Shown here: positions 390-61,702 of the stretch, one piece after another
Position numbering within the stretch: the first letter of the stretch is position 1
Layout of the letters: every line of letters starts with the position of its first letter
NCBI RefSeq assembly: GCF_000246855.1
Contig: NC_016609.1
Coordinates: forward strand, 1,426,001 to 1,490,000
Source of the DNA: Niastella koreensis GR20-10
GTDB lineage: Bacteria; Bacteroidota; Bacteroidia; Chitinophagales; Chitinophagaceae
DNA: 64,000 nt
Reading direction: 5' to 3'
Notes under the pieces: generated by a model
What the model saw: only the letters and a program-made list of their open reading frames with translations
What the model was told of the DNA's origin: nothing
The model's database searches: none
Made by a program: the position numbers and the translations under genes

Positions 390-667
390 AATATTTCGGA
401 TCAGCATTTTCGTTAATTTTTTACCGCCGGTTGCATCCAAAATTGAGCACCGAAATCACCGAAAAATACGATCGCTGATGTGGGAAATTTGCTTCGGTTG
501 ATCCGGCGCTACAGGGTGGAAAATCGAAAACGGGGCCAAATTTTCGCAGGCGATTGAAAAGTAGCTGACGGACAATCTGACAGAAAAGTGTGAAATTTTA
601 AAAATTGCTTATTGAGTTACCTGACCCTTACGTGATAAAAAATGGGCATGCTATTTTGATGCAGTCA

Positions 668-758
668 CCGGTTTCCGGTTACCGGTCTCCAGGTTTTATG
701 GTAGTTGGCTGTTTGAATTTTGTATTCCCGGTAACCGGATACCGCGAACCGGAAACCA
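668..758. repeat. Inverted pair of GGTTTCCGGTTACC repeats
   Basis: The left block (668-690) reads CCGGTTTCCGGTTACCGG followed by TCTCC. The right block (727-758) carries the inverse words GGTAACCGG and ACCGGAAACC. Each arm is itself a string of about 7-8-bp imperfect direct repeats of the GGTTxCC type. The arms could pair into an imperfect stem with a loop of about 36 bases. No coding capacity is evident. Confidence 0.65.
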
Positions 759-818
759 GCAACTTTATCATTTTTCGATAATTTTCTATCACCTCAAATT
801 TCAAAATTTTCAACTCGG

Positions 819-854
819 CTACTCACCACGGACCATTCACCACTCACCACTCAG
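819..854. repeat. ACTCACCAC-type direct repeat block
   Basis: Four imperfect copies of a 7-10-bp word (ACTCACCAC, ATTCACC, ACTCACC, ACTCAGG). The same words recur at 20244-20327 and 49038-49060, where they belong to a longer shared element. Confidence 0.6.
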
Positions 855-1079
855 GATTGCACTTTTCCAAAAACCGGTCAACAAATGGGGTGGGAATGGG
901 GGCGGTTTTTTGAAACCACTTTACCGTTTTTTGAAATCTGGCCGATCGTCCGCCCAGGTCGTTTCAACAAAAATTTTGGCGTGGCCCCAAAAAAATCCAA
1001 CGACGTGAAATTTTTTTAAGGGTCGTTTTTGGGGTTAACCACATCTTCCAAAATGCGGAAATAAGAATTTCCAATTTTC

Positions 1080-1122
1080 GGTAAAAAGTGAATTTCCAGA
1101 AAATGGAAATTCGCTTTTTACC
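1080..1122 (-). terminator. Long hairpin after the LEA14-like lipoprotein gene
   Basis: A 19-bp stem (1080-1098 with 1104-1122, one wobble pair) closes a 5-nt loop, 25 bases past the stop codon of the minus-strand lipoprotein gene. The T-rich base of the stem (CTTTTTACC) makes it terminator-like, but there is no clean U tract after it. Confidence 0.55.
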
Positions 1123-1146
1123 ATTTTTCCTGCCTTTTATTACTGC

Positions 1147-1596
1147 TTAGAATTTGATTTTTTGCATGCCTTCGTACCGGATCGGGTAATTAATAAAGAT
1201 GCCGCTGCGGCCAATTTTTGCACTTCCATCCAATTTTATTTTCACGCTGTCCGATCCGGTTGCCAGGGTCTGGATCAACTGCATGGCCGACGCACTCATG
1301 TCAACTTTCAAAACCACCGGCAGCAAAAAGGTGTCTTTTTTCGGAACCTGGATGCTGGAGTCGATGGTCGTCTTTCCGAAAAAATTATTGTTCACGTACA
1401 CATCAACCGACCCGCTTTTCATAGTCACCGGGAACTTGTTCGGATTATAAAATTCTGCATCTGCTCCCACTGTCGATTCCTTCAACCCAAACTTCATGAC
1501 TTTAAAATTTCTAACCCCCAGGTAATTGAATCCGGTTGGCTTGGCACAGGATACTGCCAGGAGGGGTAGGAGCATCCACAAACTCAGTTTTCGCAT
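1147..1596 (-). CDS. LEA14/WHy-domain-like lipoprotein
   Basis: I chose the start MRKLSLWMLL because it places a good type II signal peptide at the N-terminus, with lipobox L-A-V-S-C at about residue 17. The open frame itself runs 16 codons further upstream, to 1644. The mature part (about 130 residues) resembles the LEA14/water-stress-and-hypersensitive-response beta-sandwich: a phrase like AEFYNPNKFPVTMKSG, then alternating strands ending in a basic tail. Such lipoproteins are common in Bacteroidota, and their role is unknown beyond a proposed envelope function. It stands alone between two long spacers. Domain assignment is by pattern only. Confidence 0.72.
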   Translation of the reverse strand: MRKLSLWMLLPLLAVSCAKPTGFNYLGVRNFKVMKFGLKESTVGADAEFYNPNKFPVTMKSGSVDVYVNNNFFGKTTIDSSIQVPKKDTFLLPVVLKVDMSASAMQLIQTLATGSDSVKIKLDGSAKIGRSGIFINYPIRYEGMQKIKF

Positions 1597-1682
1597 GTCG
1601 ATGATTTTTAAGCCACAATGTAACGGATAAATTTTTCCGGCCAAAAAAGGATCGTATTTTTAGAATTTTCTTTGCTAATTAG

Positions 1683-1704
1683 TTTAGATTTAGACACATC
1701 TAAA
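1683..1704. repeat. Small inverted repeat upstream of wbqC-like gene
   Basis: TTTAGAT and ATCTAAA (7-bp arms, 8-nt spacer) lie in the A/T-rich region between the divergent lipoprotein and WbqC genes. It could be an operator, but no regulator is adjacent. Confidence 0.3.
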
Positions 1705-1891
1705 TTGGAAAAAAATGGCAAAAAATGAGCACCAGTATTTTTAGCATGTGTTATTTAAAGTAAAATGTTAATTATAAACTGAATTATACGTTTTAAGTGT
1801 AATTAAAGTTTCAAGTTTTTGATACTCAAAACGAATATTTTGCGGCTAAAAAAGGCCAATCTTAAACAGAATTTTGATAAAGTAGGTATTT

Positions 1892-2515
1892 ATGAAGTTA
1901 TTAGTTGAAAGTCAATATTTTCCGCCAGTTACCTTATTCAGAATGTCAATTCGTTTTTCAAATGTAAATATTGATGTATATGATCCCTGGCGAAAAATGA
2001 GTTTCAGAAATCGCTGTGTGGTGGTTGGCGGGAACGGTCCTATCAACCTCAGCATTCCGGTGGTGGAAGGCCGGGAACAGAAAAAGCCGTTGAAGGAGGT
2101 AATGATCGATAACCGGAAGCGCTGGCAGGTGCAACATTGGCGAACCATCGTTTCCTGTTACAACCGGTCGCCTTGGTTCAGCTTTTTTGAACCGGAGCTG
2201 GAGGCATTGTACCGGCAACCGGTTGACTTGTTGGGCGACTGGAACCGGACCTGTTTTGAATGGGTAACTAAAAAATTAGGTGTTGGTGTTTATGCAGATT
2301 ATTCTGAATATGTTCCGGGGGGAAATGGAGATGGGGATGTGGTAGACTGGCGGAACAAACTGACCCCAAAATCCATCCAAACTGAGATGAACGACCTGGT
2401 TCGGTACCACCAGGTTTTTGAAGATCGCATAGGATTTATTCCTAATTTATCTATTTTAGACCTGTTGTTTTGTGAAGGGAAAAACGCCCGGCGGATTTTG
2501 GCGGCTGGGATCTGA
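1892..2515 (+). CDS. WbqC family protein
   Basis: The 207-residue protein matches the WbqC-like family. It opens with VESQYFPPVTLF, then has INLSIPVVEGR, the strongly conserved block RWQVQHWRTIVSCYNRSPWFSFFEPEL, and ends with the typical NLSILDLLFCEG phrase. WbqC proteins occur in many Bacteroidota and in O-antigen loci elsewhere; their biochemical activity is not established. In many Bacteroidota the gene sits beside signal peptidase I, but here it is alone, followed by a gene-poor kilobase. Length is normal. No signal peptide, so probably cytoplasmic. Confidence 0.9.
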   Translation: MKLLVESQYFPPVTLFRMSIRFSNVNIDVYDPWRKMSFRNRCVVVGGNGPINLSIPVVEGREQKKPLKEVMIDNRKRWQVQHWRTIVSCYNRSPWFSFFEPELEALYRQPVDLLGDWNRTCFEWVTKKLGVGVYADYSEYVPGGNGDGDVVDWRNKLTPKSIQTEMNDLVRYHQVFEDRIGFIPNLSILDLLFCEGKNARRILAAGI

Positions 2516-2680
2516 ATCCATGATTGATTGCCCGGTTTTCCCAATTGTGGAAATGGGAATAATCCTGCGTTTCAACTAATTTGATTTATAGTGATTTAAG
2601 GGGGTTAACTATTGGGAAACACTTTTTCACAATTTGTTTCATTCTTTTAGAATTTTGTTGCAGCAACTTCATATGTTTCG

Positions 2681-2842
2681 ATGTCTAGCAAATTATCACG
2701 TAGTCACACGATTGGGGATATGGACTGGTGGGGTAAGAAAAAAAGAAGAGTGGTTGTACTTCGAGTTCAAATTATACAGACAATCAACATGGACAACCGG
2801 GTGACTTTCTACCGTGATGAAATGAATGGATCAACTATATAA
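2681..2842 (+). CDS. Possible 53-residue ORF, doubtful
   Basis: An ATG-initiated frame encodes a basic 53-residue peptide (MSSKLSRSHTIGDMDWWGKK at the start, NGSTI at the end). I do not recognise it. There is no clear ribosome-binding site, but a strong plus-strand terminator about 110 bases downstream implies that something was transcribed rightward here. It may be a remnant rather than a gene. Confidence 0.2.
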   Translation: MSSKLSRSHTIGDMDWWGKKKRRVVVLRVQIIQTINMDNRVTFYRDEMNGSTI

Positions 2843-2950
2843 TCTTCCCAAAAATGACCAACGGGAAGCCTGAATAAAGATACCAGAGGTCAACACTACC
2901 TCGAACTTTTTTGGTAATGTCTGCGTAACCAATACCAACTGCGAACAACA

Positions 2951-2977
2951 AATCCCGCTTAAAGCGGGATTTTGTTT
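2951..2977 (+). terminator. Rho-independent terminator without an obvious gene
   Basis: The stem AATCCCGC/GCGGGATT (8 bp) with loop TTAAA is followed by TTGTTTT. It is a textbook plus-strand terminator. The nearest intact plus-strand gene ends over 430 bases upstream, so it probably served a small or lost transcript. Confidence 0.75.
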
Positions 2978-2983
2978 TATATA

Positions 2984-3120
2984 GGGGTCACCCCAATTCG
3001 TCCCTCCAGGGCTTTATAATCGCTTTTAAGCCCTTGTTTCATTTCTGCCAGATAGTCACAGAGTTTCGGCGCTCAGCTCGTTGATGGGGAAATTAAATCG
3101 CCTTGGTTATATGCAGAATA
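2984..3120 (-). pseudogene. Decayed coding fragment, minus strand
   Basis: Read on the minus strand, one frame gives YSAYNQGDLISPSTS, a TGA stop, then APKLCDYLAEMKQG and KSDYKALEGRIGVTPI before a TAA. The composition and the helix-like pattern look like real protein, but there is no start codon and there is an internal stop. The family is unknown. I read it as the tail of a degraded gene; chance cannot be excluded. Confidence 0.3.
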
Positions 3121-3363: not shown

Positions 3364-3500
3364 GTCCTCTTTAATTCTCCAATTATTTGCAAAATCTGAT
3401 TGAAATTATTGCAGTATTTGCAATTATGCCTGGGTGTTAGTAGTAGGTAAAATTTTAATATGATGTTCAGCGAGCAAGAAAAGAGGGTATGTTTGGGGCA

Positions 3501-5412: not shown

Positions 5413-5419
5413 GAGTTAC

Positions 5420-5948: not shown

Positions 5949-5985
5949 GTTGATAAAGTTGAAGGAGTTGACAGGGTTGACAAGG
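5949..5985. repeat. GTTGATAAAG-type 9-bp repeat block
   Basis: Four imperfect 9-bp units (GTTGATAAA, GTTGAAGGA, GTTGACAGG, GTTGACAAG). Closely similar blocks occur at 34345-34378 (inverse orientation) and 61350-61413. Confidence 0.7.
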
Positions 5986-6065: not shown

Positions 6066-6275
6066 TGTTTCCAACTGAAAAGGAGGCAATTTCAGTTGGT
6101 AGCAGGCTGTTTCTAACTGAAAACGGTGCGATTTCAGTTGGTAGCGGGCTGTTTCTAACTGAAAACAGTGCGATTTCAGTTGGTAGCGTACCGTTTTCAA
6201 CTGAAAACGGAGTGATTTCAGTTGGTAGCGATCTGTTTCTAACTGAAAACGGGGCGTTTTCAGTTGATTGCATAC
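6066..6275. repeat. Five-unit 42-bp palindromic tandem array
   Basis: Units begin at 6066, 6108, 6150, 6192 and 6234, each exactly 42 bp and each built round the dyad AACTGAAA - 8-9 nt - TTTCAGTT. In effect the array is 21-bp half-units in alternating orientation. Units differ by a few substitutions, with no indels. Both strands stay open in at least one frame, giving 14-residue repeats (FQLETxRYQLKSxR on the minus strand), but the start codons are poor and I regard it as non-coding. Each unit could fold as a 9-bp stem-loop. Confidence 0.9.
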
Positions 6276-6289: not shown

Positions 6290-6380
6290 TTTACTTCAAC
6301 ATTCAATATTCAACATTCAATATTCAAAGGCTTTCCCCTTTCTCATTCCTCATTTCTAATTCTTCTTTTCTCATTTCCCT
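6290..6380 (-). repeat. Composite repeat overlapping desaturase 3' end
   Basis: Read on the minus strand: GAAATGAGAAAAGAAGAA-type purine repeats, then AGGAATGAGAAAGGG, then four imperfect 9-12-bp units of ATATTGAATGTTGA type ending GTTGAAGTAAAA. The same two-part order recurs at 15695-15780. The purine part encodes the last 17 or so residues of the desaturase-family protein. Confidence 0.85.
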
Positions 6381-7223
6381 TACGGTTTTTCCACTCCCAT
6401 CATGACTCCAGCCCGGCGGGCGGTACAGGTAATTCCACCAGTGGCGAATGGAGTGGGAGCGCCAGGCGCTGCTGAATAGTTCGCCCCATTCTTTAAAAGC
6501 AATGCGTGCCGGGTTATAGGTGTCAATATTTTTTGTGAGACCGTAGGTAGGTCGTTCTTCTTCGGGTTTAAAAGTGCCAAACAACCGGTCCCAGATGATG
6601 AGAACCCCGCCGTGATTTTTATCGAGGTACTTGAGGTTACTGCCATGATGCACGCGGTGATGTGAAGGTGTATTGAAAATAAATTCGATGGGGCGGGGCA
6701 GCAGATGCACCGCTTCGGTATGGATCCAGAACTGGTAGATCAAACTGATCTGTTGCATCAGCATCACCACTATGGGATGGAACCCCAGCAGGGGCATCCA
6801 CATCCAGAAAATAAAACCGCCGGTAAGGTTGCCCGTCCAGGTTTGGCGCAGGGCGGTTGACAGGTTGTACCGTTGGGAGGAATGATGCACTACGTGCGAG
6901 GCCCAGAACCAGCGAATATTATGGGAAAAATAATGGAACCAGTAATAGGAGAAGTCGTCGGCGAAAAAAGCGAGCACCCACATCCACCAGGTAAAGGGCA
7001 GGGTAAATAATCTGAATTTATATACGAGGGTGAAAGCACCGAATACGATTAGTTTTGATAAAAAGCCTGATATTACATTGCCGATTCCCATCGCCAGACT
7101 GCTGAATGTATCCCGGACCTCGTAGAGATCCTTATGTTCCTTCCAGGAATACCATGCTTCAAGCAGTAGCAATACCACAAAACATGGTATTGCAAAGTAT
7201 AGGATCTCAGGCGCCATATGCAA
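6324..7223 (-). CDS. Sterol desaturase / fatty acid hydroxylase family membrane protein
   Basis: The 299-residue integral membrane protein carries the histidine clusters of the di-iron hydroxylase superfamily: HYFSH, HVVHHSS, HTEAVH and SHHRVHHGS, spread between hydrophobic helices (about 7-25, 40-70, 85-105, 140-165). Members hydroxylate or desaturate lipids and sterols at the cytoplasmic membrane; the substrate here is unknown. The C-terminal tail REMRKEELEMRNEKGESL is encoded by the intergenic repeat and is probably not part of the ancestral protein. A -7 box and a GACC-N4-GGTC dyad lie upstream. It is divergent from the outer-membrane protein gene. Confidence 0.88.
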   Translation of the reverse strand: MHMAPEILYFAIPCFVVLLLLEAWYSWKEHKDLYEVRDTFSSLAMGIGNVISGFLSKLIVFGAFTLVYKFRLFTLPFTWWMWVLAFFADDFSYYWFHYFSHNIRWFWASHVVHHSSQRYNLSTALRQTWTGNLTGGFIFWMWMPLLGFHPIVVMLMQQISLIYQFWIHTEAVHLLPRPIEFIFNTPSHHRVHHGSNLKYLDKNHGGVLIIWDRLFGTFKPEEERPTYGLTKNIDTYNPARIAFKEWGELFSSAWRSHSIRHWWNYLYRPPGWSHDGSGKTVREMRKEELEMRNEKGESL

Positions 7224-11790: not shown

Positions 11791-11824
11791 CAATAGGCTA
11801 ATGGGCTAATTTGCCAATGTACTA
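11791..11824. repeat. GGCTAATGGGCTAAT repeat, left copy
   Basis: Imperfect 8-9-bp words (AATAGGCTA, ATGGGCTA, ATTTGCCA). The inverse (TTAGCCCATTAGCCC) lies at 11881-11908, on the other side of an 18-bp hairpin. Confidence 0.6.
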
Positions 11825-11826
11825 AT

Positions 11827-11867
11827 AATACAGGAGGCGGCATCAAAATGATGCCGCCTCCTGTATT
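11827..11867. terminator. Perfect 18-bp hairpin after the AsmA gene
   Basis: AATACAGGAGGCGGCATC pairs perfectly with 11850-11867 around a 5-nt A-rich loop. It lies between the AsmA stop and the hppA promoter and probably ends AsmA transcription, though the T tract is poor. It is nested inside the inverted GCTAATGGG repeats. Confidence 0.6.
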
Positions 11868-11880
11868 ATATTCGTATTTC

Positions 11881-11908
11881 ATTAGCCCATTAGCCCATTA
11901 GCATATTA
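11881..11908. repeat. TTAGCCCATTAGCCC repeat, right copy
   Basis: Three to four imperfect 8-9-bp words (ATTAGCCC, ATTAGCCC, ATTAGCAT, ATTAGC) inverse to the 11791-11824 block. It abuts the stop codon of the AsmA gene. Confidence 0.65.
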
Positions 11909-11909
11909 G

Positions 11910-14900
11910 CTAATTCTTCTTAAACAGTCCTTTCAGCAGCCCTTTGCCCTTTTCTTCCAGCTGTTGTTTATTGCTTTTAACCGCACTGTCCTTGGTACCT
12001 GTGCTGTCTTTACGTCCGGACAGTACGCTGGTCAGGTAATCTTTACCGGCCTGTACCGCCTGGGTTTTTACCGATGCCAGGGTGTCTTTTGCAGCGGCTT
12101 TTTTAGCTTCTACCAGCTCTTTCGCCTGGTCCTTCATATCATCGGCCAGGGAGTTGCCCGAACCGGCGAGATCGGTTTTTATGGTTGGGTTGGTAATACT
12201 ACCACCAAGGTTCACCTTAAAGTTTACTACATCGCTCACCTTAACGGGAACGCCTTTACTGTTGGCCTGTGAAACCAGGTTGTTCACGAGGGCATTGGCC
12301 TGGCTGCCCAGCTTTTCGCGCGGCACTTTCATGTTTATCACATAATCGATCGATTGGTCAAGCCCGTGCTTACCGCCAATTTCCATATCCATGTCCTGCA
12401 CTTTTACATTGAAAGGTTTTACAAACACTTTGCCATCGGCCACATCAAAATAGCTTTTTACGTCTTTCAATGAAATTTCTTTCAGGGCCGAGATATTGAG
12501 TGCGCCGGCCAGTTTATCCAACGGCGCAAATTTGTTCAGCACACCCTGTAACAACAGCATGGAGCCGCTGCCGGTGAGTGTGCTCAGATCGGGCATCATG
12601 GTTTCGCCCAGCTTGCCGTTGAGGGTAAGCTTTGAGGTTAATTTACCGGCAATGAACTGGCCAATGGGCATCAGTTTCTGCACCGTATTATACGCCATGA
12701 ATGTTTTCTGAATATCCAGGTTCTGAATGTCATAGTTAAGCGAAATATCGGGTTTCTTCTTGCTTGCTTTGGTAGAGTAGGAGCCGCCCAGTGCAATGGT
12801 GCCGTCGAGGGCTTCCATTTTTACATCTTTCATGCTAACGGTCTCATCCTTCACCGCGAGTGTACCTACAATATTTTTATAATCCACCTTGTCGTATTTA
12901 ACATCGCCTGCCTTTGCATTGAGCGTAAGGTTCAGGTTTTTGGGAACCGCAAATGGTTCGCTTGCCGGGGCAGGTGCGCCGGCTTTGGTGGCCGTATCTT
13001 TTGCTGCAGGGGCAGGCGTTGCGGTGGCGCTGGTAGTGCCCATTAATTTGTTAAGGTCCACTTTGTCTGCAGATACGTTCAAGGTACCAGCCAGGGTTTC
13101 GTTTTTTAATGCATACCCTATCAGGTTATCGAAGTAACCATTGGCATTGAAGTTGGTGCCCTGGAAATTACCGGTTACATCGTTCACCGTAACGTTTTTA
13201 GGGTTGAAGGTGAGCTGGGTATTTTTCAGGTTAACGCCATCGGGATAATCTTTCGACTTATAGCTAACGTTAGTAACCTGTATGTTGCCGGCTGTTTGAA
13301 TGGCATCGTACTGACTTTTATCGATAGATGATTTCTTTCCTTTTACCGATATATTGGCATTGAGGTTACCGGCCAGTGAGGTGCCTGGTTCAAATTTATA
13401 AAACTGGGCTATGTTGGCCAGGTTGAATGTACCTTTGGCGGTTCCGTCAAAAAAAGGGTCTGAGGCCAGTGTTTTCAATAACAGGTTCAGGTCAACCACA
13501 TCTTTGCCTATTTCAATATGCGCAGCAGGGATGGTTATCACTGCATGGTCTGCCAGCGCATCGGGGCTTTCAAAGTTTATTCTTGCGCTGGTATTTTGTA
13601 TAGGGGCCGGGAAGTCTTTTGATGAATAATACAGTTTGCTGATGTCGATATAACCCTTGGCAGTAAAATCGCCGGGTTGTTGTTTTTGTACAACCGCCAG
13701 GCTGCCTTTTGCCTGCACATCTGCATCCAGGTTACCCGCCAGTTTGGTGCCGGGCAGCTTTACAAACTGGGTAATGGTGGCCAGGTCCAGCTTGCCTTTG
13801 GCGGCTGCATCGATGTACTGGGCGGTCATGGGCTTTTGAAACAGCACGTGAAAATCGAAAGGATCGGCGCCAAATTCAATATGCGCTTTTGGAATGTCAA
13901 CCACTGCATTATCGGTTACGCCATCCGGGTTGTTCACTTTTAACACCAGGTTGATGTGCTGAACCGGTTTGGGCAGATCGGGATACTGGAAGAACCCGTC
14001 CTGGATTTCGAGATTGACATTGTATGCGGGTATTTTGGCGCCGCCGTAGGTGCCTTTTATAAAACCACTGAACAGCGCTTTACCGCTTGTTTTTATTTTT
14101 TCAAAATCCTGGGCATATACAGCAGGGATCAGGGACAAAATGCTTTTAAAGTCGGTTGAGGGTGCTTTAAAATTGATGTCCATGTTGTAGGTGCTGTCAT
14201 TCACCAACTGGAAAAAACCGTCTGTTGCGAGTTTTAACCCGTTCAGGGCTATTTCTTCCGTCTTCCAGGAGTATTTGCTGTTTTTGGTATCTACCACAAT
14301 ATCCAGGTCAATGCCGGTTTTGGTATTGTTGAGGTAGGGAATGCCGCCGTAGATAAATGTTACGGCGTCGGCATTGGTGTTGGTTTTCAGCGTAAACAGG
14401 TCTGAAGTGAAATCACCGCTGCCTTCGTGGGTTAAATTCACCAGCTCGGTGCTCATGCCCGTGGTAGCGTCGTCGTATTTTACGTACGCATTGTTGATGG
14501 CATAATGCTGCAGGTTCATTTCAAAAGGCGAAGCGGCCGTATCAGCGGTTGCCGTAGGGGCAGTGGCCGTATCGGGTTTGGTGATGTCCCAGTTGGCCTT
14601 GCCTTCCTTGGTAACAAGGGCATGAATACGCGGTTCATCGATATTAACCGAATAAATTTTCATATTCTTGCCGCCAATTACGCTGAAAAGGTTCACAGCA
14701 ACATCGATTTCTTTGGCACTGATAAGGGTATCTTTGGCAAATATATCTGTGCCAACTACCTGTAGGTCTTCGAGCGCTACAGAAACCCGGGGAAAATGAC
14801 GAAAAAAGGAGAGGCTGAGGTCTTTAAAATCAACCTGGGCGTTGATGTTCTTGTTGATCTGTTCTTTAGCAATGGCAATGATCTTGCCTTTGAAAATAAA

Positions 14901-15115: not shown

Positions 15116-15754
15116 ATGACCCCTGAAAGACATGACCGCCTGATGGCGGTATTAAAAAAGCGGCAAAGTGATTTAACGGTAGTGCTGGAAAATGTGTCTG
15201 ATCCGCATAATATTTCTGCGGTAATGCGTACCTGTGATGCGGTAGGGATACAGGAAGTGTATGTGTTGAACAACAAAATTCCCCGGCATAAAAAATGGGG
15301 CGCCAGAAGCAGCAGCAGTGCCGCCAAATGGCTGAGTATTTACCAGTTTACCGATGCAGAAGCCTGTTTTGCCGCTTTGCGTCAGAAATATGACCGTATT
15401 TTAACCACCCATCTTAGCAGTGATGCGGTTAATTTGTACGATATTGATTTTACCGGCCGTATTGCCCTCGTATTTGGCAACGAGCACTCCGGTGTAAGCG
15501 ATGAGATCAGGGCCATGGCCGATGGTAATTTTATTATTCCGCAGGTAGGCATTATTAAATCGCTGAATATTTCTGTTGCCTGCGCGGTTACCCTGTATGA
15601 AGCGCAACGGCAAAAGTTACTGGCCGGGCATTATGATAAAAGCCGCATGCCGGAACAACAAATGAATGAATTACTGGAGAAGTGGGGGGTTGAAGAAGAA
15701 ATGGAAATTAAGAATGAAGAACAGAGGAATGAGAAAGGGAATATTGAATATTGA
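15116..15754 (+). CDS. trmH: tRNA (guanosine-18-2'-O)-methyltransferase TrmH
   Basis: The protein has 212 residues and belongs to the SpoU/TrmH SPOUT fold. The N-terminus MTPERHDRLMAVLKKRQSDL is TrmH-type. The three SPOUT motifs are present: NVSDPHNISAVMRTCDAVGI (motif 1), ALVFGNEHSGVSDE (motif 2) and SLNISVACAVTLYEA (motif 3). It methylates the ribose of G18 in the tRNA D-loop using SAM. The last 20 or so residues (EEEMEIKNEEQ-RNEKGNIEY) come from an intergenic repeat that reads through the ancestral end of the gene. It is divergent from the AsmA gene and followed closely by a thioredoxin-like gene on the same strand. Confidence 0.93.
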   Translation: MTPERHDRLMAVLKKRQSDLTVVLENVSDPHNISAVMRTCDAVGIQEVYVLNNKIPRHKKWGARSSSSAAKWLSIYQFTDAEACFAALRQKYDRILTTHLSSDAVNLYDIDFTGRIALVFGNEHSGVSDEIRAMADGNFIIPQVGIIKSLNISVACAVTLYEAQRQKLLAGHYDKSRMPEQQMNELLEKWGVEEEMEIKNEEQRNEKGNIEY

Positions 15755-15780
15755 ATGTCCAATGTTGAATGTTGAAGTGA
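15695..15780 (+). repeat. Composite repeat overlapping trmH 3' end
   Basis: GAAATGGAAATTAAGAATGAAG-type purine words, then AGGAATGAGAAAGGG, then five ATATTGAATGTTGA-type words ending GTTGAAGTGAAA. This is the same order of parts as at 6290-6380 in the desaturase gene, about 9 kb away and in the opposite orientation. Confidence 0.85.
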
Positions 15781-16280: not shown

Positions 16281-16286
16281 GTAAAA

Positions 16287-16326
16287 AGTTGACCAGTTAA
16301 CTTGTTAACAGGTTAACTGGTCAACT
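16287..16326. terminator. Bidirectional hairpin between convergent genes
   Basis: AGTTGACCAGTTAAC (16287-16301) pairs perfectly with 16312-16326 around a 10-nt loop that is itself partly symmetric (TTGTTAACAG). It separates the convergent tlpA-like and DUF4142 genes. It is made of GTTAAC/GGTCAAC words seen again at 61673-61702, so it is both a likely terminator and a member of a repeat family. Confidence 0.7.
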
Positions 16327-16341
16327 AATCAACCGGAATTA

Positions 16342-16965: not shown

Positions 16966-17183
16966 TCTGAACATTTTTTTAGTGTTTTATAAGTAGCGGC
17001 ATGGAATAGTAGAGTTGATATATGTTTAGCATTTTTTATGCCCTGCCTGTGGGTAGCTGGCATAATCGTAATATTATGAATGATATAGGTTGATTGGGGA
17101 TTTATGTCAACAAGAAGTAGGGCAGAAGGCAGAAGATTTCCGGCGGCGCAGGATAGTGATTAATCACAACCTTCGCGAACTGG

Positions 17184-17214
17184 CCTTCAGCGTTCAGCGT
17201 TTAACTTTCAGCTT
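17184..17214. repeat. CTTCAGCGTTCAGCG repeat block
   Basis: Three to four imperfect 7-9-bp words of (C/G)TTCAGC type. It is another single-copy example of the phrase-like intergenic repeats. Confidence 0.5.
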
Positions 17215-20243: not shown

Positions 20244-20327
20244 AGTGAGTAGTTGGTGGTGAGTAGTGAGTGGGTTCCCTGTTTTTCAGACATCTACAAA
20301 TGTCGCGAACCTACTCACCGCTCACCG
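20244..20327. repeat. GTGAGTAGTGAGTGG / CTCACCGCTCACC inverted repeat
   Basis: The left half holds GTGAGTAGT, GGTGGTGAGTAG and TGAGTGGG words; the right half holds their inverse (CTACTCACCGCTCACC). The right half (20285-20326, inverse strand) matches 49044-49084 at about 34 of 42 positions, including GGTGAGCGGTGA, TCGCGA and TCTGAA. It is therefore a dispersed element of at least 40 bp. Confidence 0.75.
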
Positions 20328-22193: not shown

Positions 22194-22823
22194 TTACCAG
22201 TTTGAAAAAATTCGGTTGAAAATTTCATCCACCATGTTCTTGATGATGGTTTCATTTAATTGAGCCTCAGCCTGCGTTAGCGACTGAGTAGCGCCATAGT
22301 CGAAGTTACGGGAAACATCGGCTTCAAAATTCTTTGTAGGGTCCAGGTTGTTCCTGAAATTGAGATGTACAATAACAGTAAGCCGCTGAATAGAAGCTTG
22401 CTGCTGCGTAGTACCACTGCTATTCTGACCTGTTGAAACCCCTGAGGTAGTAACATTATACCCCGTTACCGTACCACTGATGTCGTAATGCGCATCATCG
22501 CCCTGTACGCCGGTTAACCGGGTTTGGCTGGTGATCTTCTGACGCAGTTTATCAGTTAACTGCGGGCTCAGTTGCGGATTTACGTACCGCGCCTTGTTTT
22601 CAATATAGTTTACCCTGAAGGTTTTTACTTCAGGAGGAATAGAGCCAATGTCTTTGAAGCTGTAGCAGCCTGTTGTCAATAATACAATAGGCAATAGGCA
22701 ATAAGCAAAAATCAATCGGCAATCGGCAATTGGCAATCGGCAAAAAGAAATTAATGCCGCGAAGCGGGATTGCTTATTGTCAATTGTCAATCGACTATTG
22801 GCTTTATCATTCTTTAATATCAT
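22194..22823 (-). CDS. lptE: LptE-family lipoprotein with repeat-derived signal region
   Basis: The mature part begins at the lipobox L-L-T-T-G-C-Y-S-F (cysteine near residue 52). It matches the Bacteroidota LptE family: FRVNYIENKARYVNPQLSPQLTDKLRQKI, then a beta-rich middle and VDEIFNRIFSNW at the end. LptE plugs the LptD barrel that delivers lipopolysaccharide. The N-terminus is odd. ATG at 22823 gives a long leader whose middle (FCRLPIADCRL) is encoded by the GGCAATCGGCAAT intergenic repeat. A TTG inside the repeat is an alternative start. The 5' end overlaps the regulator gene upstream by 17 bases. The family call is firm; the start is not. Confidence 0.82.
   Translation of the reverse strand: MILKNDKANSRLTIDNKQSRFAALISFCRLPIADCRLIFAYCLLPIVLLTTGCYSFKDIGSIPPEVKTFRVNYIENKARYVNPQLSPQLTDKLRQKITSQTRLTGVQGDDAHYDISGTVTGYNVTTSGVSTGQNSSGTTQQQASIQRLTVIVHLNFRNNLDPTKNFEADVSRNFDYGATQSLTQAEAQLNETIIKNMVDEIFNRIFSNW
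22688..22745. repeat. GGCAATCGGCAAT repeat inside the lptE 5' end
   Basis: Seven or so imperfect 7-9-bp units (AGGCAAT, AAGCAA, TCGGCAA, TTGGCAA). The same family occurs at 34285-34316, next to the tolC-like gene. Here it lies within the coding frame and makes up much of the hydrophobic part of the signal peptide. Confidence 0.75.
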
Positions 22824-34284: not shown

Positions 34285-34316
34285 ATCGGCAATCGTGAAT
34301 CGGCAATCCGCAATCG
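34285..34316. repeat. TCGGCAATCGTGAATCGGCAAT repeat
   Basis: Four imperfect 7-9-bp units of TCGGCAA type, the same family as in the lptE 5' end at 22688-22745. Confidence 0.65.
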
Positions 34317-34344: not shown

Positions 34345-34378
34345 TGTTAACTTGTCAACTCCGTCAACTTTATCAATT
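34345..34378 (-). repeat. GTTGATAAAG-type repeat overlapping ATPase stop codon
   Basis: On the minus strand it reads AATTGATAAAGTTGACGGAG then TTGACAAGTTAACAGG. The TGA of AATTGATAAAG is the stop codon of the ABC ATPase gene, so the repeat begins inside the gene. Related blocks are at 5949-5985 and 61350-61413. Confidence 0.7.
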
Positions 34379-35038
34379 CTGTTCTATCCTTCCATCCAGT
34401 AAATTAATTATGTGCGAACCATACCCGGCATTCTTCTCAGAGTGAGTAACCTGTATAATGGTTACGCCTTCTTTATTCAATTGTTTGAACAGGTCCATAA
34501 TTTCTTCACCCTGTTTTGAATTGAGGTTACCGGTTGGTTCATCGGCCAGCAATAATGTTGGTTTGGCAATGAGGGCGCGGGCAATACCCACCAGCTGTTG
34601 CTGACCACCCGAAAGCTGGGTAGGGAACAGGTCTTTTTTGCCAACGATATTAAAACGATCTATCATGTCGGCAACCATGGCCTTGCGCTCGTTTGTTTTT
34701 ACGTTTTGATAAATAAGCGGCGTTTCAATATTTTCGTACACCGTTAGTTCATCAATGAGGTGATAAGCCTGAAACACAAACCCTACATGTTGCTTATATA
34801 TTTGCGAACGTTGCTTTTCTTTCAGCGAATGCACCGGCTGGTCCATAAAAATGTATTCGCCTTCGTTGGCATCATCGAGCATGCCCAGAATATGCAGCAG
34901 GGTGGATTTGCCTGAACCGGAAGGGCCCATGATGGAAACAAATTCCCCTTCTTTGATCGTCAGATTAATATCTTTTAAGATAAAAGTTGGTTTACCGCCT
35001 ACCTGGTACCATTTTGAAATGTGCTTCAGTTCGATCAT
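34373..35038 (-). CDS. ABC transporter ATPase, MacB/LolD type (downstream copy)
   Basis: The start MIELKHISKWYQ (221 residues) fits the family; an in-frame upstream codon is ignored. Motifs: Walker A GPSGSGKST, Q-loop VFQAYHLIDELTVYENIE, signature LSGGQQQ, Walker B LLLADEPTGNL and switch histidine VTHSE. The residues after the signature are LVGIARAL, where most members have RVAIARAL; loss of that Arg is unusual. It energises FtsX-type permeases. It lies after the last permease and before the tolC-like gene, so the cluster has two ATPases. Confidence 0.92.
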   Translation of the reverse strand: MIELKHISKWYQVGGKPTFILKDINLTIKEGEFVSIMGPSGSGKSTLLHILGMLDDANEGEYIFMDQPVHSLKEKQRSQIYKQHVGFVFQAYHLIDELTVYENIETPLIYQNVKTNERKAMVADMIDRFNIVGKKDLFPTQLSGGQQQLVGIARALIAKPTLLLADEPTGNLNSKQGEEIMDLFKQLNKEGVTIIQVTHSEKNAGYGSHIINLLDGRIEQN

Positions 35039-35178
35039 AATTTTTAGTTCTTGGTTTTTAATTAGTCCCAATACATGCCAGAATGTAATGGGGTGATTTG
35101 CAAGATACTATAATCAAATCAGGGTTGTGCTTGTTTGTTTTCGATACAGAAACTGTCCGGTTTTGATACAATACAGCC

Positions 35179-37655: not shown

Positions 37656-37724
37656 GTTGCAGGTTTCAGGTTTCAAGGTTTTATTTGTTCTTATTCCCTG
37701 TAACCTGGAACTTGAAACCTGTAA
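37656..37724. repeat. GGTTTCAGGTTTCAAGG / CCTGGAACTTGAAACC inverted repeat, spacer 3
   Basis: The left arm (37656-37679) and right arm (37698-37724) are inverse strings of 7-8-bp words (AGGTTTC, CTGGAAC, GAAACCTG). It lies between permeases 3 and 4 of the export cluster. The same pair design occurs at 40195-40261 and 46067-46124. Confidence 0.75.
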
Positions 37725-37728
37725 CGCT

Positions 37729-40194: not shown

Positions 40195-40261
40195 GCAGGT
40201 TGCATGTTACAGGTTTTAGGTTTTTATCCGTTTGCATTCCCTGCAACCTGGAACCTGTAAC
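40195..40261. repeat. CAGGTTGCATGTTACAGG / CCTGCAACCTGGAACC inverted repeat, spacer 2
   Basis: The left arm (40195-40222) and right arm (40240-40261) are inverse strings of GGTTxCA-type words. The right arm ends one base before the stop codon of permease 2. Second of three such pairs in the operon. Confidence 0.75.
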
Positions 40262-46066: not shown

Positions 46067-46124
46067 TGTAACAGGTTCCAGGTTGCATGTTTTAAGTTCC
46101 CTGAAACCTGGAACTTGTAACCTG
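46067..46124. repeat. TAACAGGTTCCAGGTTGC / CTGAAACCTGGAACTTGTAA inverted repeat, spacer 1
   Basis: The left arm (46067-46086) and right arm (46101-46124) are inverse strings of GGTTCCA-type words. It lies between the adaptor gene and the small peptide gene. First of three pairs within the export operon. Confidence 0.75.
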
Positions 46125-49037: not shown

Positions 49038-49084
49038 GTGAGTGGTGAGCGGTGAATAGGCTCGCGAACTTTTAGGAGTCTGAA
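49038..49084. repeat. GTGAGTGGTGAGCGGTGA dispersed element
   Basis: Words GTGAGTG, GTGAGCG, GTGAATAGG, then CTCGCGAAC and GTCTGAA. Positions 49044-49084 match 20285-20326 (inverse strand) at about 34 of 42 positions. It lies between the regulator and kinase genes. Confidence 0.75.
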
Positions 49085-49141
49085 TTGTCGGCACTAACCA
49101 TTGCAGCTTAAAAAACAAAACGATCACTTTAAATAACTAGC

Positions 49142-51273: not shown

Positions 51274-51678
51274 TTAGTGTTTGAATAAATTGATGGCGTA
51301 TAAGCCCATTATCATTGTAACCATGGATATAAAAATGGCCAGCATCCATTTTTGTTGGGAGAGAGAATGCTCCTTTATTTCATTGCGAAGGCCATGAATT
51401 TCTCCTGTTATTTCATTGCGAAGGCCGTGAATTTCTCCTGTTAATTCTTTGCGAAGGCCATGAATTTCTCCTGTTAATTCATTGCGCAATGCATGAATAT
51501 CTTCTTTTAATGCGAGGCATTCATCTTTAACGAATACCCTGGTTGCTAATATTTCAGTTTTATTATTCAATTCGTCTCTTACTTTTATTTCAACAAATTG
51601 GGTAAGGCATTCTGCTTAATTTCTACCCACCTTTTGCGCCAACACCTCATACAGCTTCGTTAGGGTTATATTTTCCAT
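51274..51678 (-). pseudogene. Coiled-coil/TM small protein gene interrupted by in-frame TAA
   Basis: From ATG at 51678 the frame gives MENITLTKLYEVLAQKVGRN, then TAA (51616-51618), then AECLTQFVEIKVRDELNNKT and onward to a C-terminal membrane helix (FISMVTMIMGLYAINLF) and stop at 51274. Both parts read as one protein of about 134 residues. The interior (about 51385-51483) consists of three 33-bp direct repeats encoding an 11-residue coiled-coil unit (ELTGEIHGLRN). One base change (GAA, CAA or AAA to TAA) explains the break. A TTG downstream of the stop (51570) could still give a 98-residue product. Overall a recent pseudogene is the simplest reading. Confidence 0.65.
51385..51483. repeat. Three 33-bp direct repeats inside the coiled-coil gene
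   Basis: Three near-identical units beginning GCGAAGGCC(A/G)TGAATTT. Each encodes 11 residues (hendecad), which fits a right-handed or straight coiled coil. A partial fourth unit lies at the 5' side. Confidence 0.85.
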
Positions 51679-51837: not shown

Positions 51838-52935
51838 TTACACGTTAAACCTGAAGTGCATTACATCTCCATCCTTCACTATATATTCCTTACCCTCAAT
51901 GCGCAGTTTACCGGCTTCGCGGCAGGCTGCTTCCGAACCATAGGTAATATAGTCGTTATAGGCAATTACTTCCGCTTTGATAAAGCCTTTTTCAAAATCG
52001 GTGTGAATAACGCTGGCGGCCTGTGGGGCTTTCCAGCCTTCGTGGATCGTCCAGGCGCGAACTTCCTGTACACCGGCAGTGAAATAGGTTTGCAGGTTCA
52101 GCAATTTATACGCCGAGTGGATCAGGCGGTCCAGGGCGGGCTCGGTCATTTTGTATTCTTCCATGAACATCTGCTTGTCTTCGGGGGCTTCCATTTCACT
52201 GATCTGGGCCTCGATACTGTTGTTCATGATGATCACCTGTGCGTTTTCGCCTTTAACAGCTTCCTGCAGGGCAGCAGAGAATTTGTTACCGGTATGCATA
52301 CTTGCTTCATCCACATTGGCAACATACAACACCGGTTTTTCGGTAAGCAGGAACAGGTCGGCAATGGCCGGACGCTCTTCTTTGGTAAGTCCCAGCCCGC
52401 GGATGCTTTGACCTTTTTCCAGGTGTTCTTTACAACGTACCAGTACGTCGTATTCAGCCTTCAGCTTGGGGTCAATGCGCGCCTGTTTTTCAACCCGGCT
52501 TATTTTCTTGTCAACACTTTCCAGGTCTTTCAGCTGTAATTCTATATCAATGATCTCTTTATCGCTTACGGGGTTAATGGCGCCTTCGTCACGTAAAATG
52601 TTCTCGTCCTCAAAACAGCGGATCACGTGAATAATAGCATCCACTTCGCGGATGTTACCCAGGAATTTATTACCCAGTCCTTCCCCTTTGCTGGCGCCAC
52701 GCACCAAACCGGCAATGTCTACAATTTCAATCTGGGTAGGAACAATTTTATCGGGGTGCACCAGTTCTGCCAGTTTATTCAGGCGGGCATCGGGCACATC
52801 AACCAGTCCAACATTCGGATCGATAGTACAGAAACGATAGTTGCTGGCCTGTGCTTTAGCACTGTTACTCACTGCGTTAAATAAGGTTGATTTCCCAACG
52901 TTCGGTAATCCGACAATTCCTGCTTGTAAAGCCAT
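51838..52935 (-). CDS. ychF: Redox-regulated ATPase/GTPase YchF
   Basis: The 365-residue protein is a full-length YchF (OLA1) of the Obg class: G1 GLPNVGKS (9-16), switch region VPTQIEIVDIAGLVRGASKGEGLGN, the altered G4 NNSIE that explains ATP preference in this group, a coiled-coil middle and a C-terminal TGS domain ending KDGDVMHFRFNV. YchF binds ribosomes and modulates stress responses. It is a single gene. Its promoter box lies about 125 bases upstream, leaving a leader that contains a large inverted repeat. Confidence 0.97.
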   Translation of the reverse strand: MALQAGIVGLPNVGKSTLFNAVSNSAKAQASNYRFCTIDPNVGLVDVPDARLNKLAELVHPDKIVPTQIEIVDIAGLVRGASKGEGLGNKFLGNIREVDAIIHVIRCFEDENILRDEGAINPVSDKEIIDIELQLKDLESVDKKISRVEKQARIDPKLKAEYDVLVRCKEHLEKGQSIRGLGLTKEERPAIADLFLLTEKPVLYVANVDEASMHTGNKFSAALQEAVKGENAQVIIMNNSIEAQISEMEAPEDKQMFMEEYKMTEPALDRLIHSAYKLLNLQTYFTAGVQEVRAWTIHEGWKAPQAASVIHTDFEKGFIKAEVIAYNDYITYGSEAACREAGKLRIEGKEYIVKDGDVMHFRFNV

Positions 52936-52961
52936 TTTCTTAGTTTTTTGTTCTTTGTGCT

Positions 52962-53045
52962 GGGTTCTAAGTTTTTGGTTTTGAGCCTTTAATTCTGAGT
53001 CCTTGATTTTAAGGAACTTAGAACTTAAAACTTTGAACTTAGAAC
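52962..53045. repeat. GTTCTAAGTTTTTGG / CTTAGAACTTAAAAC inverted repeat in ychF leader
   Basis: The left arm (52962-53005) and right arm (53011-53045) are inverse strings of 9-10-bp words (TTCTAAGT, AACTTAGAAC, AACTTTGAAC). It lies inside the predicted ychF leader. A small copy (GAACTTAGAACTAAGAAC) is at 61644-61663. Confidence 0.75.
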
Positions 53046-60311: not shown

Positions 60312-60347
60312 AAAGTGTTAATTTATTAGTTAGTAGGAAAGTGCATA

Positions 60348-60361
60348 TACGCAAAGGCGTA
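60348..60361. promoter_or_regulatory. Candidate operator upstream of susC
   Basis: TACGCAAAGGCGTA is a perfect TACGC-N4-GCGTA dyad, 37 bases before the susC start. CGCAAA-type motifs occur also in front of deoR. Confidence 0.45.
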
Positions 60362-60417
60362 ACAGTTCTGGTTTTTTCTGTTGACTGGAGATTGAGCTTT
60401 GAGGGAGTAGCAGTTTA

Positions 60418-61167
60418 TTACAGCACCTGAATGCCGGCGTCGATGTACGGTTTTAACACCGGTGAATCGGGTGGCAGTTCAGTGATCAATATGTCTATGT
60501 CTGAAATGTTGCAGATGTGAATGGGCTGCAGGGTGTTGATCTTTTCTGAAATGGTGCAGCACACTACTTTTTGTGAAGAGTCGATCATGATCTTCTTCAA
60601 CTGCGCGATTTCCCAATCGTTTTCGGTGGTGCCGCGTTTTATATCAATAGCATTGATGCCCAGGAAGCACAGGTCGGCATTTATATTCCTGATTTTGGCG
60701 ATGGCTTCTGCGCCAATGGTGATTTTGGCATTCTTCGACACGCGGTCGCCGATCATTACCACTTCAATATTGGGATGTTGCATGTATTCGAGAATGGCGG
60801 GAATACTGCCTGAAATAAAGGTGGCGCGTAATGCCGGAGGAAGGGCCCGGGCCATTTCAATAATGGTAGTGCCTCCGCTGGTAAGCACAAACATGCCATC
60901 CTGGATAAGGGCTGCGGCTTTTTGCCCAATAATCTTTTTCTGGTCCTGCGAATACACGCTTAAACCGGAATAAGTCACGTCGTTAAAAGAATGCGAAAGG
61001 GCGCCACCATGAACTTTAATGAGTTTGCCTTCTTCATTCAATTCCATTAAATCGCGGCGGATGGTGTCTTCCGACACCCGGATCTCATGACTCAGCAGGG
61101 AAGAAAGTACTTTATTGTGCAGGTTTACCTGATGCAGGATATATGCCTGACGTTCTTTTTTCAGCAT
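60418..61167 (-). CDS. DeoR/GlpR-family transcriptional regulator
   Basis: The 249-residue protein has an N-terminal DeoR helix-turn-helix (RQAYILHQVNL, then HEIRVSEDTIRRDLMELNEEGKLIKVHGGAL) and a C-terminal sugar-phosphate-sensing DeoRC domain (DGMFVLTSGGTTIIEMARALP, LCFLGINAID, ELPPDSPVLKPYIDAGIQVL). Members repress sugar-use genes and are released by a phosphorylated sugar. It lies 106 bases upstream of susC in the same direction, so it very likely controls that locus. It has its own -7 box and possible operators. Confidence 0.93.
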   Translation of the reverse strand: MLKKERQAYILHQVNLHNKVLSSLLSHEIRVSEDTIRRDLMELNEEGKLIKVHGGALSHSFNDVTYSGLSVYSQDQKKIIGQKAAALIQDGMFVLTSGGTTIIEMARALPPALRATFISGSIPAILEYMQHPNIEVVMIGDRVSKNAKITIGAEAIAKIRNINADLCFLGINAIDIKRGTTENDWEIAQLKKIMIDSSQKVVCCTISEKINTLQPIHICNISDIDILITELPPDSPVLKPYIDAGIQVL

Positions 61168-61189
61168 AATCTGTTAGTTGGTTTCAACC

Positions 61190-61197
61190 CAAATATA
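61190..61197 (-). promoter_or_regulatory. -7 box of deoR-type gene
   Basis: TATATTTG on the minus strand matches TAnnTTTG, 22 bases before the start codon. Confidence 0.55.
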
Positions 61198-61208
61198 ACA
61201 GGAATACG

Positions 61209-61262
61209 GCATAAATGCGCAAAAACAGGATTATTTATGCGTGATTAGCGCAAAATAAAGCG
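61209..61262. promoter_or_regulatory. Candidate DeoR operator cluster
   Basis: GCATAAAT (61209-61216) and ATTTATGC (61233-61240) form an inverted pair over the -33 region. TGCGCAAAA and TAGCGCAAAATA are two direct copies of a CGCAAA motif (61216 and 61246), followed by GCGC. The susC dyad shares CGCAAA. Autoregulation by the DeoR protein is inferred. Confidence 0.45.
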
Positions 61263-61349
61263 CTGAAATGGCTATTTTCTTATTATTAATGCGGGTATTT
61301 GCGTTAATGATATATGTAGGACGTATGTTTTTAAGATTGGGCCGCAGGA

Positions 61350-61413
61350 GTTGACAAGGCAAGTTAGCCGGGTTAGGCGTGTTGATAGGGTTGATAAAGT
61401 TGACAAAGTTGAT
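61350..61413. repeat. GTTGATAAAG-type block
   Basis: At least six imperfect 9-bp units (GTTGACAAG, GTTGATAGG, GTTGATAAA, GTTGACAAA, GTTGATAGC). Third copy of the family also found at 5949 and 34345. Confidence 0.7.
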
Positions 61414-61524
61414 AGCGGGGCGTGTCATTACCGGGGTTGGTTCTGGTAAGCTCCTCCATTGTGTCGCATTTGATAAATATGTGTTACGACGGTATTCCCT
61501 ACATGTTTCGATCCTATATAGGAA

Positions 61525-61579
61525 CGAGACATATACGAGACATATACGAGACATGTACGAAATATGTACGGGACATTGG
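61525..61579. repeat. Five-unit 11-bp tandem array
   Basis: CGAGACATATA twice, then CGAGACATGTA, CGAAATATGTA and CGGGACATTGG: five units of exactly 11 bp with decreasing identity. Confidence 0.75.
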
Positions 61580-61643
61580 TAATACCGGTACGAACCCCAC
61601 CCGGAGATGGGCAGAAACTACCGGCCAATGAACCGGCAAACAG

Positions 61644-61663
61644 AGAACTTAGAACTAAGAACC
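61644..61663. repeat. GAACTTAGAACTAAGAAC block
   Basis: Short member of the TTCTAAG/CTTAGAA family seen at length in the ychF leader. Confidence 0.5.
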
Positions 61664-61672
61664 TGCTATTCT

Positions 61673-61702
61673 GGTTAACTGATCAACTCGTTAACTGACC
61701 AA
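61673..61702. repeat. GGTTAACTGATCAACTCGTTAACTGACCAAC block
   Basis: Imperfect 7-8-bp words GTTAACT and GATCAACT in direct and inverse order, related to the hairpin at 16287-16326. It abuts the end of the small barrel gene and may act as its terminator. Confidence 0.6.

Follow-up and report, generated by a model that had tools for sequence, protein, structure and literature searches.

A 64,000-nucleotide stretch of the chromosome of Niastella koreensis GR20-10 (NC_016609.1, positions 1,426,001 to 1,490,000; hereafter the window) carries in its intergenic spacers strings of short imperfect words, often mirrored into hairpins, which share a common design and recur throughout the genome and in its relatives of the same genus (Niastella species and Longitalea luteola). 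What is directly observed is the vocabulary of the words with its constant and variable letters, the lengths of the units, their polarity, their position at gene ends, their turnover and a copy number that differs between species. We give about an even chance to the proposal that these strings are mostly the arms of genus-wide, short, dispersed, non-autonomous palindromic elements, which resemble the repetitive extragenic palindromic sequences (REPs) and their inverted pairs (REPINs), with arms like the short tandemly repeated repetitive sequences (STRRs) of cyanobacteria. A first-pass annotation, made from the letters of the window alone, had described many families of one design, spread over the genome, rather than one conventional mobile element; this description stands, as the families recur outside the window and in sister species.

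Tandem-word arrays in Niastella spacers

The N. koreensis genome (G000) is a single contig of 9,033,684 bases, in which genes were called and arrays located with custom scripts. Within its first 464 kb, 271 spacers (92 kb) contain 61 arrays, as against 0.4 per shuffle (20 shuffles), and 264 kb of coding DNA from the same region contain two. Thus the shuffled control that the first-pass annotation had proposed does not yield arrays, nor are the families limited to the window, as matches elsewhere in the genome and in sister species attest. A larger portion of 1.234 Mb with 719 spacers has 140 imperfect tandem-word arrays, at densities of 0.93 per kb in convergent, 0.76 in tandem and 0.39 in divergent spacers. 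In the 35 spacers of the window itself (9.7 kb) eight arrays reach a score of at least 12 (shuffled mean 0.0, maximum 1 in 50 shuffles) and 19 a score of at least 9 (mean 1.4, maximum 4), and many of them are also listed by Tandem Repeats Finder (TRF). The stronger families exceed chance in the window alone; the weakest words, e.g. GTTCAGCG at 17186-17201 and GTGAGTGG at 49038, count mainly through their recurrence elsewhere. All 21 word sites quoted in the first pass were recovered on one strand or the other, no more than about 50 bases from the stated position, 14 of them exactly, six with one mismatch and one with two. Spacers of up to 2.5 kb entered this recovery of quoted words and the analyses of mispairs, letter variability, difference clustering, gene-end orientation and arm agreement given below; those of up to 1.5 kb entered the comparisons of orthologous spacers and of vocabulary across species.

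The 140 arrays have periods of 7 (82 arrays), 8 (37), 11 (11), 9 (9) and 12 (1). When 5-mers recurring at a set distance are counted, periods 7, 8, 9, 11 and 14 give 2009, 794, 641, 589 and 1795 occurrences, as against 311-341 in shuffled sequence, while periods 5, 10, 12 and 13 give 358, 366, 386 and 368 (322-342 shuffled) and period 6 shows a slight excess (416 versus 320). Unit length is quantised at 7, 8, 9 and 11. The first-pass picture of words of 7-14 bp is accordingly retained as regards their imperfection and variable bases, with the amendment that length is fixed for each family (7, 8, 9 or 11). Ten families defined by hand accommodate 113 of the 140 arrays, the remaining 27 lying outside them: the heptamers GCAATNG, AGTTCNN, GGTTNCA, GTGAGTN, AAAGCNN and TTGAATR, the 8-bp words GTTRACNN, TAATNTGM and GTTNTTAR, and the 9-bp word GTTGAYARR. 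Some ten word families are found again across the genome and in the sister species.

Each word combines fixed and free letters. In the 8-bp TAATG family positions 1, 3, 4 and 7 are constant in 53 of 53 units and position 5 differs in 62% of neighbouring units, and position 5 of GGTTNC is near random (C22 A19 G18 T14), although the core letters in such counts are biased by the choice of arrays through an anchor word. Without anchoring, differences between neighbouring units still cluster by position (2369 versus 1404, sd 29; the highest value among 1000 permutations was 1503), as measured in those 121 of the 208 arrays that have at least three differences. Clustering within one array could be explained by duplication of multi-unit blocks, a process by which free positions common to many arrays are harder to explain. 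The vocabulary is likewise shared: among 72 arrays from five sister genomes, 61 have words in common with an array of G000, as against 22-30 after the unit columns are permuted, and 196 of all 208 pooled arrays share words with another, against a high control of 139-162. In one long array (L112:10994) the words drift gradually from GTTCCAA to GGCTTTA at a constant 7-bp period.

Hairpins, polarity and location at gene ends

The first-pass statement that many strings form inverted pairs applies to about half of them: 60 of the 140 arrays have an inverted partner scoring at least 12 (0.2 expected), and 69 have one scoring at least 10 (2.1 expected). The 5' arm almost always shares one word orientation: without exception in GCAATNG (12/12), TAATG (11/11), GTGAG (7/7), GTTNTTA (5/5) and GTTRAC (4/4) and in the small families GGTTNC (2/2), GTTGA (2/2) and TTGAAT (1/1), and in most cases in AAAGC (10/12) and AGTTC (3/4); in these counts both arms of one hairpin can contribute. 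Families and polarity were defined post hoc, partly on the arrays used for this polarity count, to which the gene-end count adds five sister genomes. Among the 189 assigned arrays of these six genomes, sense words outnumber antisense words 72:12 within 40 bp of a stop codon, and antisense words outnumber sense words 23:3 within 40 bp of a start codon, so that at both ends words point from the gene into the spacer. Orientation is nearly balanced over tandem spacers as a whole (63 sense, 70 antisense), and among the arrays of tandem spacers that lie beyond 40 bp from the nearest gene end antisense exceeds sense 21:9 where that end is a stop codon and 23:5 where it is a start codon.

Stop codons are also the preferred location. 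Near them lie 84 of the 110 arrays found within 40 bp of a gene end, and 36 of 50 hairpins lie at most 15 bp from one (17.2 under random placement, maximum 24 in 200), while 5 of 42 lie as close to a start codon (10.8 under random placement). We considered whether the words are backup stops in three frames and dropped this idea, given that period 9 occurs, periods 5 and 10 do not, and words at start codons keep the outward rule.

The loops of the hairpins hold terminator-like stems or, in GTGA-armed elements, a core of about 40 nt, for which a nucleotide profile gave seven matches at E <=0.05 in its last round, all in GTGA-armed copies. TCGCGA was rejected as a common core (25 in spacers versus 17.8 shuffled). 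With the arms aligned from their inner ends, free letters agree about as well between different hairpins as within one in most families (own/different: GTTRAC 0.37/0.37, GCAAT 0.48/0.51, GGTTNC 0.58/0.60, GTGAG 0.64/0.65, GTTGAY 0.33/0.33), with higher agreement within one hairpin in AAAGC (0.61/0.54) and AGTTC (0.72/0.58); TAATG, with two pairs, was left out of this scoring. In the best register the two arms agree at 0.679, as against 0.634 for swapped arms, a value reached by 5 of 300 swaps. Thus the arms are not chiefly an RNA helix, and their constant part is mainly the word core in each arm. At one locus (L113:5050-5260) three near-identical AAAGC-family word hairpins stand in tandem at 97-bp spacing, the whole element being duplicated.

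Turnover and species-specific copy number

Comparison of 34 window spacers with those of five sister genomes (mean protein identity 79-88%) shows a turnover of word families in orthologous spacers, which the first-pass annotation had suggested testing for gain or loss. These spacers gave 388 genome pairs: both members have word families in 97, one only in 122 and neither in 169, which places one-only presence at 122 of 219 non-empty pairs. A family is shared by 48 of the 97 doubly occupied pairs (49%), as against 20% of non-orthologous pairs. In the spacer at 16281-16341, GTTRAC words are present in G000, G007 and G009, while G005 has AGGTAAGA words, G001 has GTTGAT words and G008 has none. 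By contrast, five of the six species have a called hairpin upstream of ychF, and in the sixth one can be seen.

The abundance of a family differs more than 200-fold between species. Counted as overlapping three-unit match positions, and not as loci, GTTRAC gives (forward/reverse) 194/183 in G000, 237/265 in G007 and 1/1 in G008; TAATG gives 22/17, 61/56 and 2/1 in the same order and 0/0 in G009; GGTTNC gives 24/23 in G000, 52/50 in G001 and 3/1 in G005. Reversed-pattern controls are 0 except for GTTRAC (G004 31/23, G006 8/6, G005 2/3, G003 1/1, G009 0/1). A wider survey covered 43 of 53 named loci, those of at least 11 kb. Seven Niastella and Longitalea loci (at least 79% identity) have 9.7-21.3 arrays per 10 kb of spacer, and a Pseudobacter metagenome-assembled genome (MAG) has 19; no arrays were found in this survey in Paraflavitalea, both Pseudoflavitalea loci or the MAG Niastella sp. 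BIN41 (70% identity), and ten further Bacteroidota loci have one or two each, the rest none.

A candidate Y1 transposase

The proposed palindromic elements would have the layout (word>)n - loop - (<word)n, the loop being a terminator-like stem or a family-specific core. They would enter new spacers by copying rather than arise there, and would persist where they are least harmful, just past stop codons, with arrays lengthening and shortening by slippage and drifting in sequence while keeping their period. Less surely, the copying enzyme, at least of the GTGA and GCAAT families, would be a single-copy, vertically inherited HUH Y1 transposase, which would recognise the word core and act on single-stranded DNA, as REP-associated tyrosine transposases (RAYTs) are thought to do on REPINs.

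The first pass saw no transposase or integrase beside the repeats, and indeed none is present among 30 Pfam-scanned proteins of the window (44 genes called), but a candidate exists about 4.1 Mb away. This HUH Y1 gene (PF01797; G000:C1:5622944-5623369) encodes 142 amino acids with the motifs DHMH (M at the third HUH position) and YLDKQEEHH. It occurs once in each of ten genus genomes, with the same neighbours in the loci read. Its HUH and Y---Q--HH motifs, length, single copy and Bacteroidota host agree with subclass 1.2 of the Y1 transposases, which is described in PMC6006769 as having DH[IV]H and Y---Q--HH, about 148 amino acids, low copy number, a distribution in Bacteroidetes and Cyanobacteria, and no REPs.

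With arrays of less than 86% A+T counted, nine of the ten genus genomes have a word element directly upstream of the Y1 start (eight found by the detector, one by eye). It is of the GTGAATGG type in G001, G002, G003, G004, G006 and G008 (the last by eye) and consists of GGCAATCG/GTGAATCG in G000, G005 and G007; in N. yeongjuensis the short spacer upstream of the gene has no word element. These elements belong to the GTGA and GCAAT families, other families not being found there in the ten genomes. Several genus genomes also have a second Y1 gene, of about 204 amino acids; in the three examples inspected (L136, L132, L133) no arrays were detected around it.

Related Y1 genes with Y---Q--HH in other Bacteroidota (L119, L256-L279) have a perfect flanking hairpin in 20 of 24 cases, on both sides in eight. 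The 24 genes have 42 flank hairpins versus 7.2 after shuffling, or 1.75 per 380 bp versus 0.45-0.59 in ordinary spacers; the flanks are fixed windows that may include coding ends, and two of the genes share a genome. Examples of these palindromes are GTCCCGTAGGGAC and CCCGGACTAAAGTCCGGG, in a subclass that has been described without REPs. In 21 aligned orthologs from outside the genus (L289-L307, L209, L255) the signature tyrosine is replaced by phenylalanine in nine, Y---Q--HH is intact in four, and the rest have the tyrosine with a changed HH. The retention of the gene at a conserved locus with phenylalanine suggests that the protein may have a role without cleavage.

Weighing the explanations

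The most direct alternative is local birth, wherein the tandem words come from replication slippage and the mirrored arm from a template switch at a stalled fork, in spacers that tolerate the product. This would account for the near-confinement of arrays to spacers, for arrays that drift at constant period such as L112:10994, for the variation of unit number between copies, and for the slight excess of agreement between the two arms of a hairpin over swapped arms. Slippage with template switching, which the first-pass annotation had named as one of two options for a common mechanism, predicts locus-specific words, copied arms and no fixed polarity. The data instead include a finite vocabulary common to genome and species (in which the comparison with sister genomes is the clearer and the pooled control high), free letters hardly more alike in the two arms of a hairpin than in swapped arms (0.68 versus 0.63), fixed word polarity, and quantised periods with hardly any of 5, 6 or 10; as the whole explanation this mechanism is therefore unsupported, and we hold local birth to be unlikely. 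The other option named in the first pass, an unknown element class, comes closer to the evidence. A functional RNA, in which hairpins at mRNA 3' ends terminate, stabilise or regulate and are kept by selection, would fit the location of 36 of 50 hairpins at stop codons, the terminator-like stems in some loops, the retention of the ychF hairpin across the genus, and the effect of Escherichia coli REPs at stop codons reported in PMC12306157. Against this, the sense strand of word arms in tandem spacers shows no excess of G.U over A.C mispairs (22 versus 36, in a test that is insensitive, as other inverted repeats give 44:44), orientation tracks the gene boundary and not transcription, and many orthologous spacers have no hairpin. 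We consider this explanation quite improbable. An Rfam scan of the window returned the tRNA only.

Fixed-pitch arrays of binding sites for sequence-specific DNA-binding proteins that organise the chromosome or mark gene boundaries could also account for the constant and variable letters of the words, for an outward polarity that is symmetric between the two gene ends, and for the scant covariation between arms. Ten or more words would require equally many factors, and families turn over rapidly at orthologous places, which makes this possibility very slim. Chance or an assembly artefact, in favour of which we found nothing, is contradicted by the shuffles, the single-contig genome and the same pattern in seven named Niastella and Longitalea records, and need scarcely be entertained.

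Several observations weigh against the proposal of dispersed palindromic elements or against the part of the Y1 gene in it. No copying event was seen among the genomes compared, a target-site signature not having been sought, and the ten or more families compared have no common loop or tag. The loop-core model matches the element upstream of the G000 Y1 gene weakly (E 0.035), and a persistent element at that spacer is not unique, since window spacers 14 and 36 keep their families too. Outside the genus, where arrays of less than 85% A+T were counted, the link is weak: 64.9 kb of spacer from genomes with the Y1 gene contain 12 arrays, and 55.1 kb from genomes lacking it contain five. No arrays occur in 4.8-7.1 kb of spacer each in Paraflavitalea, two Pseudoflavitalea and G150, all with Y1 orthologs, and G130, with no Y1 match at E 1e-25, has three. 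Genomes with an intact Y---Q--HH do have more arrays (nine in 16.4 kb, two of three genomes having arrays) than the others (six in 38.1 kb, three of 13 genomes; p 0.015), the latter dividing into tyrosine with a changed HH (three in 15.4 kb, six genomes) and phenylalanine (three in 22.7 kb, seven genomes). Stretches added after this excess had been predicted do not confirm it by themselves, with no arrays in 0.6 kb for intact genes and four in 7.9 kb for those not intact (three of them in G843). Because of this and the other counter-evidence, we regard the link of the Y1 gene to the word elements as possible but somewhat doubtful.

Elements of the window

The genes of the window are ordinary chromosomal ones (H+-pyrophosphatase, AsmA-like, polyphosphate kinase, MacB/FtsX permease, SusD, TonB-type, YchF, SecG, LptE and others). 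The word elements between them are listed below, with strand where one is assigned and with the means of detection in brackets.

668..757: GGTTNCC/GGTTTCC word hairpin, arms at about 668-686 and 733-757 (quoted word exact at 670)
821..853, minus strand: GTGAGTGG-type array (ACTCACC on the plus strand), period 7 (TRF; score 12 at 832-853)
5949..5982, plus strand: GTTGAYARR array, period 9 (score 8)
6295..6327, minus strand: TTGAATR array with a period of 7/14, lying across the stop codon of the gene for the fatty acid hydroxylase (6324-7223, minus strand) (TRF; score 19)
6331..6375, minus strand: GAATGAG-type array, period 7/14, within the 3'-terminal part of that hydroxylase gene (TRF, array scan)
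11792..11910: TAATNTGM (GCTAATGGG) hairpin, period 8, around a GC-rich terminator-like stem (score 17)
15739..15776, plus strand: TTGAATR array with a period of 7, lying across the stop codon of the gene for the SpoU methylase (15116-15754, plus strand) (TRF)
16288..16333: GTTRACNN hairpin, period 8, between two converging genes (score 12)
17121..17201: period-7 words GGCAGAAG and TTCAGCG (scores 8 and 9, weak when taken by themselves)
20244..20327: GTGAGTN hairpin around the loop core of about 40 nt (reverse orientation), beside secG (array scan)
22685..22791: GCAATNG hairpin with a period of 7, in the spacer that separates the LptE-like gene from its preceding neighbour (score 25)
34285..34308, plus strand: GCAATCG/GTGAATCG words, period 7/14 (score 10)
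34345..34377, minus strand: GTTRAC/GTTGAY words lying across the stop codon of the gene for the ABC transporter ATPase (34373-35071, minus strand)
37656..37725: GGTTNCA hairpin between MacB/FtsX-type permease genes (score 10)
40195..40261: GGTTNCA hairpin in the next permease spacer (scores 8 and 9)
46069..46124: GGTTNCA hairpin, the family being found here in G008 alone of five sister genomes
49038..49099, plus strand: GTGAGTN words and, after them, the loop core GGCTCGCGAA...TCTGAA..., past the stop codon of the sigma-54 activator gene (core match E 1e-4)
52937..53045: AGTTC/GTTCTTA hairpin directly upstream of ychF (51838-52935, minus strand), family kept in sister species (score 13)
61345..61412, plus strand: GTTGAYARR array, period 9 (score 14)
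61524..61570: 11-bp array ACGAGACATAT (TRF; score 27)
61644..61662, minus strand: AGTTC (GTTCTAA) words, period 7 (score 9)
61673..61705: GTTRACNN words adjoining the gene end at 61706

The 3' arm of the hairpin at 11792..11910 abuts the stop codon of the AsmA-like gene, and its spacer has 39 matches in the genome, itself included. At the spacer beside secG, GTGA-type words are also present in four of the five sister genomes.

Two other repeats were observed in the window. Positions 6066-6266 hold a tandem array of a palindromic 42-bp unit (TGTTTCTAACTGAAAACGGGGCGATTTCAGTTGGTAGCGGGC), with other periodic arrays of palindromes of about 20 bp in this or another spacer in sister species. A 66-bp tandem repeat at 51370-51511, which differs in copy number in N. 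yeongjuensis, lies in a long spacer resembling a decayed or uncalled reading frame.

Comparison with known systems

Our search of the open-access literature found no report of word arrays in Niastella. As with REP/REPIN-RAYT systems, there are tens to hundreds of extragenic palindromes (140 arrays in 1.234 Mb here), situated near stop codons and in inverted pairs, and an HUH Y1 gene, vertically inherited as a single copy, with an element at its flank. According to PMC8049555 and PMC3733652, RAYTs are single-copy and vertically inherited and REP ends often supply stop codons; in E. coli, translation is reported to be lowered by REPs that follow closely on a stop codon (PMC12306157). In contrast to those systems, the one tagged palindrome (GTAG or CGTC) is absent here, many families coexist, the Niastella arms are tandem degenerate words at fixed pitch, and the Niastella Y1 protein belongs to subclass 1.2, outside the known RAYT classes. 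With the IS200/IS605 Y1 transposases of subclass 1.2 it shares the HUH and Y---Q--HH motifs and low copy number; unlike the account in PMC6006769, which lists no REPs for the subclass, the flanks here hold palindromes and, in Niastella, word elements.

Dispersed heptamer repeats of Cyanobacteria and Bacteroidota have so far been described without a mechanism. TAACTGA direct repeats, found in Beggiatoaceae, in Cyanobacteria and in a few members of the Bacteroidetes, are according to PMC4679880 scattered intergenic heptamer tandems with no known mechanism; they comprise one heptamer, which in BOGUAY stands mostly just upstream of start codons, with one indirect repeat. Niastella instead has many other words, mostly past stop codons, about half of them with inverted partners. 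Cyanobacterial STRRs are described in PMC2670836 as intergenic, usually 7-bp repeats with reported hairpins and unknown function. The intergenic 7-bp tandems at many places in Niastella (82 of 140 arrays) are alike by description, whereas Niastella also has 8, 9 and 11 bp arrays, with a defined polarity and loop cores. By a broader conjecture, which we think improbable at present, subclass 1.2 Y1 transposases would drive the heptamer-word arrays of Bacteroidota, and perhaps the cyanobacterial STRRs as well: the degenerate word would be recognised, tandem copies would build the arms, and families would arise by drift at constant pitch, amounting to a tandem-word REPIN. The palindrome-flanked subclass 1.2 Y1 genes (20 of 24) and the tyrosine-replaced orthologs (9 of 21) are leads in themselves. 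With dense, pitch-quantised, gene-end-polar and species-specific repeats, several genomes for comparison and one candidate enzyme, this genus makes the origin of STRR-like repeats testable; its repeats are REP/REPIN-like in place and dynamics and STRR-like in unit length.

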